From the NCBI GenBank assembly GCA_025360455.1, contig JANYCF010000100.1, forward strand, positions 1-44,465: 44,465 bases of DNA. Reading direction: 5' to 3'. Below the pieces are notes generated by a model. It worked only from the letters and a program-made list of their open reading frames with translations, was not told the DNA's origin and ran no database searches. Positions 2,898 through 20,977 of the stretch are shown here, one piece after another; position 1 is the stretch's first letter; each line of letters opens with the position of its first letter. The position numbers and the translations under genes are program-made. Source of the DNA: Opitutaceae bacterium (GTDB lineage: Bacteria > Verrucomicrobiota > Verrucomicrobiia > Opitutales > Opitutaceae).

Positions 2898-3824
2898 ATG
2901 AAGATTGAGATCCCCGAGAATTTAAAAGCCGAGTTGCCATCCAACCAATGGGGGAAAATTCTGACCTCAACTCCCATCGTGATGGCCGTGGTTGCCACCC
3001 TCCTGGCGGGACTCGCCTCCAGCGAAATGACCAGCGCCCAGTATGATCGCTCCTTTGCCGCGCAAATCCAATCCAAGGCCGGGGATCAATGGGGTTACTT
3101 TCAAGCGAAGAAATTACGCGGCGCTCTGCAGCGCAGCACGCTTGAGGTCCTGTTGGCCAATGCCCCGGCCAGCCCACTGGAGTCCACCGCGCAATTCGGT
3201 ACCGGGGAAATTCACACGCTGTTGGAATCAGCCGAAGGGCAACAAGCTCTGGCTTATCTCCGGACGGGTACGTTGCCGTCAGTCGCTGATGGCCAGCCCT
3301 TGCCGGCCGAGATCAAGGCTGTGCAGGCCGCCCTCGAAGCGAATCAATCGGACGAAGAAATCGCCCATCTGCTCATTCCGGTGCAGACCGATGCTCTCGC
3401 CACGATGGTGCGCAATGCCCGAGCCCACGCCAATGCGGTCGATCAAGCTAACGCGCCGGTCAGCCATACCTTGGATCGATTGGGAGAACTCCTCGAAACT
3501 TCATCTGAAATCACGGGGCCGACCCGCACCAGCCTCAGCGCGTCACGCCTGCGTTTTTTGCAGCGCCGTTATGAGGCCGAGGCCCGGGCCAACCAAGCGG
3601 TCGCCGTTCTGCTCGAGCTGCAAGTCCACAAGTACAACCGATCCGCCGAATGGCATCATCGGCGCAGCCAGCGATTTTTCTATGGCATGCTGGCCGCCCA
3701 AGCGGCCGTCATCATCGCCACCTTTGCGATCGCTGCCCGCCGGCGCAACCTCCTCTGGTCGCTCGCCGCCGCCGCCGGCCTGGCCGCTATCACCGGCGCC
3801 ACCTACGTTTATCTTTTCCTTTAG
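2898..3824 (+). CDS. DUF4337-like membrane protein
   Basis: A 308-aa protein with one predicted membrane segment near the N-terminus (about residues 25-42, PIVMAVVATLLAGLAS) and two at the C-terminus (about 254-273 and 282-306). The motif DQWGYFQAKKLRG just after the first segment matches the DxWxYYQAK signature I associate with DUF4337. The central 160 residues are probably soluble and helical, with an Ala/Gln-rich coiled-coil character. No catalytic residues are evident and the function is unknown. The start is preceded by a pyrimidine-rich stretch, not a Shine-Dalgarno sequence. It converges on the minus-strand gene at 3840, leaving only 15 bases between the stop codons. Confidence 0.65.
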   Translation: MKIEIPENLKAELPSNQWGKILTSTPIVMAVVATLLAGLASSEMTSAQYDRSFAAQIQSKAGDQWGYFQAKKLRGALQRSTLEVLLANAPASPLESTAQFGTGEIHTLLESAEGQQALAYLRTGTLPSVADGQPLPAEIKAVQAALEANQSDEEIAHLLIPVQTDALATMVRNARAHANAVDQANAPVSHTLDRLGELLETSSEITGPTRTSLSASRLRFLQRRYEAEARANQAVAVLLELQVHKYNRSAEWHHRRSQRFFYGMLAAQAAVIIATFAIAARRRNLLWSLAAAAGLAAITGATYVYLFL

Positions 3825-19187: not shown

Positions 19188-19419
19188 GGGAAGGTTTCTT
19201 CGTGAAGCCCGACGGTAAATCCAGTTGGACGAAATTCATCATCCACTCGCGAGCGCCCACGCCCATCAGTTGCTGTGGGCCGGTCAGGATAACCAGACGC
19301 TCTGCCTGACGCAGACGCGTGAAAAACTCACCCGCCAAGTTGGGCGTGTGCTGCAGGTACGGTTCACCGGTCACACAACGAACCGCAGGTTGGGTCGAGA
19401 CATGGAAGTTAGTGGGCAT
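19180..19419 (-). CDS. Small uncharacterised ORF between murF and mraY, 79 aa
   Basis: An ORF that begins inside the last codons of murF (11-base overlap) and ends inside the first codons of mraY (8-base overlap). This interlocked arrangement strongly suggests it is translated, by termination-reinitiation, because no Shine-Dalgarno sequence is seen. The product starts MPTNFHVSTQPAVRCVTGEP, has a hydrophobic stretch (ERLVILTGPQQLMGVG, about residues 40-55) too short for a sure membrane segment, and ends FTKKPSHA. I recognise no family. A role in lipid I/lipid II synthesis is only an inference from position. Confidence 0.6.
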   Translation of the reverse strand: MPTNFHVSTQPAVRCVTGEPYLQHTPNLAGEFFTRLRQAERLVILTGPQQLMGVGAREWMMNFVQLDLPSGFTKKPSHA

Positions 19420-20977
19420 GGGGTAAAGTGTCGGTGAGGACGGTTTCCAATTGGTAACGACGGCTGGCTTTGAGAAATACGGCGCCTTGATAGCCCACGA
19501 GTCGCGCGCGCACGGGGGCGACGTCCTCGATCACGGAGACCTGCGCGGGATCGTTGCCATTTTCCAGCAAACCCTCGCGCACCGCAGCGGCTTGAGCGCC
19601 GAGAACAAACAGCGCATCGCCCGGTCGCAGTAAAATCAACCGACCCAATTGCCGATGATATTCGGCAGCACCCTCCCCAAGTTCTTCCATGCAACCGAGC
19701 ACATATAGCCGCGCCAATTCGGGCTTCACCAGACTGGTGAACGCCGAAATCGCATCCGCCATCGAGGCCGGATTCGCATTGTAGAAATCACAATAAACCA
19801 ACGCCTCGCCCACGCGCTGCAGTTCACCGCGCCACTTGGAGGGTTGCCAGGTATGCAAACGAGTTTGCAGCGTGACGTCATCAATCCCGAGCGTAGAGGC
19901 CAACGCCAAAGCCAGCGCGGCGTTCTGCGCCATCCCACCCGAAACCCGGCGAAAGATAAATTTGCGTTTGTTTTCCAGGATCACCTCGGTCCGTTCCGGC
20001 CGGTGCAACACCGTATAGCTCAGCGTCGGTCCCGAGACTTTCACCATGCCCTCATTCGCGGGCACGAGCACAAGCGGATTGGTCAGAGCGCGAAACGATT
20101 CATACGCCCAGCACGCGACTGGAAAAACATTCAGTCCGCCACTGCGCGTAGCCGCCGGCAGCCGGGATTTTTCGTACGCCACGCCTTCGAGCGAACCGAG
20201 CAACGCCAAATGCGCCGGACCCACGAGTGTCACCAAACAGTGGTCGGGTTCGATCATCTCGGCCAACCCTTCCATCTCACCGGGCATATTTATTCCCGCT
20301 TCGATAATCGCCGCCCGATGCCGCGCGGGATTCAGCTTTGTCAGCGTCAACGGCACGCCGATGTGATTGTTCAAATTACCCTCGGTCTTGAGCACCGTGT
20401 CATGTTCGCGACCCATACCATCATCCCTATGAGCGCTTTTGTTCATATTCCCCTCGGTCGCATACGCGCTGGGATTTCCGCCGAGCAGAACCGCGAGCAT
20501 ATCTTTCGTCGAAGTTTTGCCGGCACTCCCCGTCACTCCGACCACCGTCCCATGAAATTCCCGGCGATGTTCCCGCGCGATGCGCTGAAACGCCGCCAAC
20601 GGATCCACCACGATGAGCTGCGGCAAGGTTGATCCGGAAACTTCGTGCGCCACGAGAGCGGCGACGGCGCCTTTGGCCTGCGCTTCACCCAAAAAATCAT
20701 GGCCGTCGCGCTTGTCCGTCTTGAGCGCGACAAACATCTGCCCAGTCGTCAGCGCCCGCGTGTCCTGATTAAAACCGCAAATTCCCTCATTCGATGCAGA
20801 AGCAGTAAGGTGGAACCCGGCCTCCGGACGAGTTTGCTTAACTTCCGCCGCAACCAACCCGTCCGGAGGCCGGGTTCCACCCCCAGAAAGCGTTTTGCTC
20901 AGCAGCGCCCCGCCCGGTAAACGGGTCCAGCGTCCGTCCGTCCAGACGGCGAGCTTTTCTTGGGCGAACGACGACAT
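19409..20977 (-). CDS. murF: UDP-MurNAc-tripeptide--D-Ala-D-Ala ligase MurF, with two in-frame insertions
   Basis: A cytosolic Mur ligase that adds D-Ala-D-Ala. At 522 aa it is longer than the usual ~450-470. The P-loop TGSAGKTSTKD is at residues 149-159, and later landmarks are LKTEGNLNNHIGVPLT, DFYNANPASM and YVLGCMEELGE. Two stretches do not belong to the family pattern. Residues about 33-57 (GGTRPPDGLVAAEVKQTRPE and neighbours) are encoded by a perfect inverted repeat at 20809-20881. Residues about 174-197 (TEGNMNKSAHRDDGMGREHD and on) lie between two near-identical copies of TEGN and end where the family motif resumes. The frame stays open through both, so the enzyme is probably functional. 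Confidence 0.9.
   Translation of the reverse strand: MSSFAQEKLAVWTDGRWTRLPGGALLSKTLSGGGTRPPDGLVAAEVKQTRPEAGFHLTASASNEGICGFNQDTRALTTGQMFVALKTDKRDGHDFLGEAQAKGAVAALVAHEVSGSTLPQLIVVDPLAAFQRIAREHRREFHGTVVGVTGSAGKTSTKDMLAVLLGGNPSAYATEGNMNKSAHRDDGMGREHDTVLKTEGNLNNHIGVPLTLTKLNPARHRAAIIEAGINMPGEMEGLAEMIEPDHCLVTLVGPAHLALLGSLEGVAYEKSRLPAATRSGGLNVFPVACWAYESFRALTNPLVLVPANEGMVKVSGPTLSYTVLHRPERTEVILENKRKFIFRRVSGGMAQNAALALALASTLGIDDVTLQTRLHTWQPSKWRGELQRVGEALVYCDFYNANPASMADAISAFTSLVKPELARLYVLGCMEELGEGAAEYHRQLGRLILLRPGDALFVLGAQAAAVREGLLENGNDPAQVSVIEDVAPVRARLVGYQGAVFLKASRRYQLETVLTDTLPHAH
20367..20458. repeat. 20-bp direct repeats flanking an insert inside murF
   Basis: On the minus strand ACCGAGGGGAATATGAACAA (20439-20458) and ACCGAGGGTAATTTGAACAA (20367-20386) differ at 2 of 20 bases. 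They are 72 bases (24 codons) apart, so the reading frame is kept. Both encode TEGN-N-N, the conserved MurF motif. Together with the 52 bases between them this looks like an insertion with a duplicated target, or a tandem duplication that then diverged. Confidence 0.65.
20809..20881. repeat. Perfect palindromic element inside murF (22-bp arms)
   Basis: The arm 20809-20830 (GGTGGAACCCGGCCTCCGGA followed by CG) and the arm 20860-20881 are exact reverse complements over 22 bp, with a 29-bp loop. It is 73 bp long and is translated as part of MurF without a stop codon. Family-A-like extragenic palindromes elsewhere in the window lie only between genes. Confidence 0.85.

Follow-up and report, generated by a model that had tools for sequence, protein, structure and literature searches.

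The described systems closest to the palindrome studied here are treated in two reports, which we take to be those of Di Nocera et al. on GTAG-type REPs and of Bertels and Rainey on REPINs. The former (PMC3733652), in the portion available, singles out Opitutus terrae: of the genomes examined there, it has the highest number of intragenic GTAG-type REPs, and a GTGG tag is present in the majority of its GTAG-20 elements. The same portion files two intragenic repeats of R. conorii, RPE-4 and RPE-6, under the CGTC type. With the GTAG-20 REPs of O. terrae, as presented in that portion, the element described below has in common the GTGG tag, the inverted dimers and in-frame genic copies, including one in uvrA, but stem and loop sequences are different, the published consensus not being part of this comparison. 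In the REPINs of Pseudomonas fluorescens, according to the available part of PMC3116915, the inverted REP doublet is likewise the unit, with a preferred spacing and an association with RAYT; however, these were described in extragenic space, whereas several copies here are genic. Rickettsia palindromic elements, by their description in the available portion of PMC3733652, are also in-frame palindromes that add residues to proteins, although they belong to other bacteria and the likeness is one of description and not of sequence.

The window, that is, the whole stretch of DNA that was analysed, comprises 44,465 nucleotides of an Opitutaceae bacterium and contains a murF gene with a palindrome in its coding region. 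The open frame matches the Pfam models Mur_ligase_M and Mur_ligase_C and aligns to solved MurF chains; the N-terminal Pfam model Mur_ligase gave no match to this MurF. No second full-length murF was present among the listed matches in the source genome (26 matches in all). The features of the locus are as follows.

19409..20977, minus strand: murF, the host gene, 522 aa.
About 20780..20902 (ends approximate), minus strand: block of about 41 residues missing from relatives (59 residues versus 18-20).
20809..20881, no strand: whole palindrome, read as a REP doublet from its inverted arms and family matches.
20810..20834, plus strand: REP arm 1, GTGG tag and stem AACCCG/CGAGTT (one mismatch), from arm collection and covariation.
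20835..20855, no strand: spacer of 21 nt, the most frequent length for this family in the source genome.
20856..20880, minus strand: REP arm 2, GTGG tag and stem AACCCG/CGGGTT, from arm collection and covariation.

As the preliminary description had it, the palindrome is perfect: GGTGGAACCCGGCCTCCGGACG at 20809-20830 is followed by its exact reverse complement at 20860-20881, giving arms of 22 bp that stand 29 bp apart, and the reading frame of murF is free of stops across them. If one mismatch is allowed, the arms reach 26 nt and are 21 nt apart. For the 19-nt arm core (at most 3 mismatches), 2 matches were found versus 0.04 expected, a number reached in none of 100 shuffles. Folded as DNA, the whole palindrome has an energy of -33.9 kcal/mol versus a shuffle mean of -12.7 (z -9.4; equalled by 0 of 200 shuffles). 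The two arms pair with one another as single-stranded DNA, and the long palindrome is the preferred fold; arm 1 folded alone is no better than shuffles (128/200 as good), and arm 2 is slightly better (15/200 as good). A search of the element against Rfam returned nothing at the gathering threshold.

Comparison with related MurF proteins reveals an insertion at this site. In the N-terminal part of the protein, just before the conserved FNQDTR motif, 59 residues are found in this MurF versus 18-20 in 42 of 42 informative relatives (both strands read); relatives keeping the same residues without an inverted repeat, the observation that could have made the palindrome a product of codon use, were not encountered among them. 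The insert reads GGTRPPDGLVAAEVKQTRPEAGFHL and probably occupies a surface loop. About 24 residues foreign to MurF had been proposed initially. The extra residues are real, but the block is larger, about 41 residues (about residues 26-66), of which the palindrome makes up about 25 and some 15 lie outside it. The ends given are approximate, there being no empty site at the DNA level, as the MurFs of relatives are about 67-77% identical at best. The 43 relatives compared consist of 29 loci from a set of 57 genomes and 14 from genomes with an exact arm match. In the first set, 55 of the 57 genomes (the source genome included) matched the MurF search, and the 30 listed loci were used, one of them being the source's own. 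In the second, 15 of 15 genomes matched; the weak match of the fifteenth (L262) and second loci of the same genes (L263-L267) were dropped. The MurF of L259 ends early within the block, leaving 42 informative relatives, and the two sets may overlap in species. Since the 14 were chosen for an exact arm match and yet are without the insert, genomes harbouring the repeat family can lack the murF copy. Separately, this MurF has a second extra block (window positions 20367-20459), with 51 residues versus 25-30 in 37 of 43 relatives and 35-63 in the other six. It contains near-identical 21-nt direct repeats, 72 nt apart, has no other copy in the source genome and is not of the REP family.

The possibility that the same palindrome occurs elsewhere in the genome was borne out. 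In the 405 contigs of the source genome, the arm core (at most 3 mismatches) was matched 86 + 86 times versus 1 + 2 times for the reversed control. From the surroundings of the 100 listed matches among these 172, 137 arms (at most 6 mismatches in 25 nt) were collected, one place at a contig edge being lost. They comprise 37 single arms and 50 pairs, and 46 of the pairs form regular inverted doublets in which the spacer measures at least 17 nt; two of these, on contigs C29 and C261, are near-identical, lie at contig ends and are possibly one locus counted twice. The spacer is 21 nt in 29 of the 46 doublets from the listed matches, which indicates inverted doublets with a preferred spacing. Because relatives lack the residues and further copies of the palindrome are scattered over the genome, the in-frame insert is regarded as an inserted repeat. 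That the copies share more than the palindrome was also considered and is unsupported, as matches stay within positions 6-100 of a 111-nt query (40 of 116 candidates scored, among the matches listed).

Beyond the source genome, an element search of the 57 genomes (source included) matched three, the source strongly and two others, G010 and G024, weakly (E 6.5e-4 and 6.9e-4). Additionally, an exact-pattern scan of public genomes found at least 85 stretches carrying the arm, and the titles of the 80 listed name Opitutus, Oleiharenicola, Lacunisphaera, Pedosphaera, Opitutaceae, Opitutia or Verrucomicrobia. At loci of other genomes, a 21-nt spacer is found in 20 of 62 doublets. Judged from these searches, the family is patchy, yet not private to the source species. 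With arms present in at least 15 other genomes, comparison can be used to test how selfish repeats contribute peptides to proteins. Genome G015, which we take to be Opitutus terrae, belongs to the same family as the source of the window and had no match to the window element. It has an in-frame dimer of its own inside a UvrA frame (L310), whose GTGG-tagged arms measure 23 nt and are separated by 24 nt; 479 codons precede the dimer and 255 follow it.

Taken together, a REP doublet, consisting of two inverted GTGG-tagged arms with a 21-nt spacer, was very probably copied into murF and tolerated there. The copying would probably have been done by a RAYT-type tyrosine transposase, with the DNA in single-stranded form. 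The arm consensus is without stops in all six frames, and the insert kept the frame; it would be translated as part of MurF, presumably without harm. The observations behind this reading are the family, the arm structure seen by covariation, the absence of the block in relatives, the open frame and the presence of RAYT beside some copies. The initial likening to Rickettsia palindromic elements holds in so far as an in-frame inserted repeat works alike, being dispersed and absent at this site from all 42 relatives, but REP doublet (REPIN) is the better name. The preliminary description knew of no palindrome inside a gene for this group, whereas many intragenic GTAG-type REPs are already reported for Opitutus terrae in the available portion of PMC3733652. 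Its main text, as far as available and with additional files aside, makes no mention of murF, queA or mfd, and a literature search for murF together with a palindromic element found only a paper on trypanosome mitochondria. The murF copy is a good new example, not a new phenomenon, because insertions of this sort are already on record for a relative. It shows clearly how a dispersed palindrome can sit in frame in an essential and well-studied enzyme, and before a protein insert in this group is taken for a natural domain, it should be screened for REPs.

The murF copy has counterparts in other genes. A codon-usage classifier for genic and intergenic placement was tried and rejected as too noisy, failing murF itself on one side; genic placement therefore rests on homology read by hand, by which 8 of the 46 regular doublets (listed matches) were judged genic. 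Among the listed copies, in-frame placement in genes of the source genome, with homology on both sides, was seen for six doublets and two single arms. The doublets are in MurF, QueA, Mfd, an MFS/spermidine-synthase protein, a BioD-BioF fusion (at the junction) and a membrane protein, and the single arms are in UvrA and an HI0933-like flavoprotein. The membrane protein matches no Pfam model, and "glycosyltransferase-like" describes only its appearance. Copies in ComEC and a GH28 protein are weaker cases, with homology on one side only. In Mfd, QueA and UvrA, the single compared relative has, at the copy site, a linker of comparable length whose sequence is different, so these copies may have replaced a linker; in QueA, 44 residues of the source's protein stand versus 6 in the solved chain. 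In other genomes, a DEAH helicase and a GH115 protein have copies within domains, and an FtsY-like GTPase is interrupted by the repeat between its two domains.

It is doubtful, though conceivable, that these copies represent something more specific, namely a protein-compatible REP family that spreads through coding sequence and supplies essential and repair proteins with a reusable peptide module. Such a family would have arms stop-free in six frames, a spacer that keeps the frame and, of three frame classes, the KVEPGL... class seemingly avoided in the few curated copies. The arm consensus is indeed stop-free in all six frames, but not every copy is: 10 of the 46 doublets (listed loci) are open in six frames, and the murF doublet is open in four of six. 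One frame class is shared by 7 of 8 genic doublets of the source genome (p 0.008) and the 21-nt spacer by 8 of 8 (p 0.016), both post hoc values on a hand-picked set that includes ComEC and GH28, and copies in other genomes also use a second frame. A further view, which would add to the copying and tolerance of a doublet without being exclusive of it, is that the insert is kept for a useful peptide or an RNA hairpin that slows translation or tunes murF mRNA. We consider this improbable. The doublet folds strongly as DNA and essential or repair genes repeatedly harbour in-frame copies, but the two cases closely aligned to several relatives sit in loops variable in length and sequence, as mere tolerance predicts.

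The reading of the element as a tolerated REP doublet draws on the structure of its arms. Each arm consists of GTGG, AACCCG, nine bases and CGGGTT, that is, a tag and a 6-bp stem, and conservation falls off about 2 bases beyond the tag. Across the 137 arms from the listed loci, standard pairs occupy 791 of 822 stem-pair cells versus a shuffle mean of 738, a value reached by 0 of 1000 shuffles. The fourth stem pair is C-G in 97 arms, G-C in 23 and T-A in 8, and the second is A-T in 119 and G-C in 9. Double-changed cells within arms number 43 versus 6.8 in shuffles and, among 53 distinct arms, 19 versus 4.2, neither reached by any of 1000 shuffles, which ignore kinship; the count of additional pair types stands out less, being reached by 14 and 25 of 1000 shuffles. 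Furthermore, the two arms of a doublet differ at the fourth stem pair in 20 of 46 cases (listed loci), while a standard pair within the arm is kept in 89 of 92 arms. Because compensating changes are found inside single arms whereas the two arms of a doublet often differ, the conserved unit is the small stem of each arm and not the long palindrome. Against this, the murF copy favours the long palindrome and its separate arms fold weakly. The covariation is that of the REP plan, and the layout of the element corresponds to a REPIN/BIME doublet in the GTAG superfamily.

The association with RAYT is seen beside some copies. A RAYT gene between copies was found in one related genome, where an open frame of 152 aa (L190, Opitutaceae bacterium isolate PL25a_bin.151, 3202-3660) is flanked upstream by an arm with a degenerate partner and downstream by an arm pair with a 3-nt spacer. 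The source genome has only a remnant beside one copy, at the end of contig C208 (L121:16-348); it contains an in-frame TGA and adjoins a REP doublet, the matched stretch stopping 36 nt ahead of the doublet. Of 13 RAYT-like loci, three have arms with at most 4 mismatches, and only that on C208 has them at its edge, the others being more than 1 kb off. A link of the arms to the PF01797 transposases of the source genome was rejected, as ten loci (11 of 14 PF01797 matches) contain no arm core with at most 4 mismatches; two chance-like matches with 5 mismatches were seen.

These results bear on the view that the element is a MITE of an ordinary DDE insertion sequence, its arms being the terminal inverted repeats. 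A length of about 75 bp, inverted ends, a high copy number and the long palindrome as favoured fold of the murF copy all suit a MITE. However, compensating changes fall within each arm and not between the two arms, single arms occur, a RAYT sits between copies in L190, and the IS-like element near some copies has other ends and sits inside arms, which makes this origin very unlikely. That codon use in a natural MurF extension produced the palindrome by chance is scarcely credible, for although another MurF loop differs in length among relatives, the view is refuted by an arm core that occurs 172 times in the genome (at most 3 mismatches) and by 42 of 42 relatives without the block.

An element with ends GAATGGCGCTTAAG lies at one fixed place inside REP arms, with 8 junctions in contigs of the source genome (C3:14361, C8:5563, C44:4807, C306:7512; C4:23, C9:3402, C134:3881, C275:168). 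Its two junction types, found at different loci, imply an 11-bp duplication, GCCTCYGGACG. A further junction (C354:184) lies outside an arm, after GGATCCGGACG, and C186:2350 resembles a footprint. Beside one junction stands an ORF (L109:2-1453) that by its look is presumably an IS4-type transposase. At C42:8308, C181:37635, C242:12965 and C255:21477, another repeat, similar to TTGTCCGTCGTAGCCTTGGCGAAGTCGGA, comes after the same point in the partner arm and looks as though it were nested in the hairpin loop.
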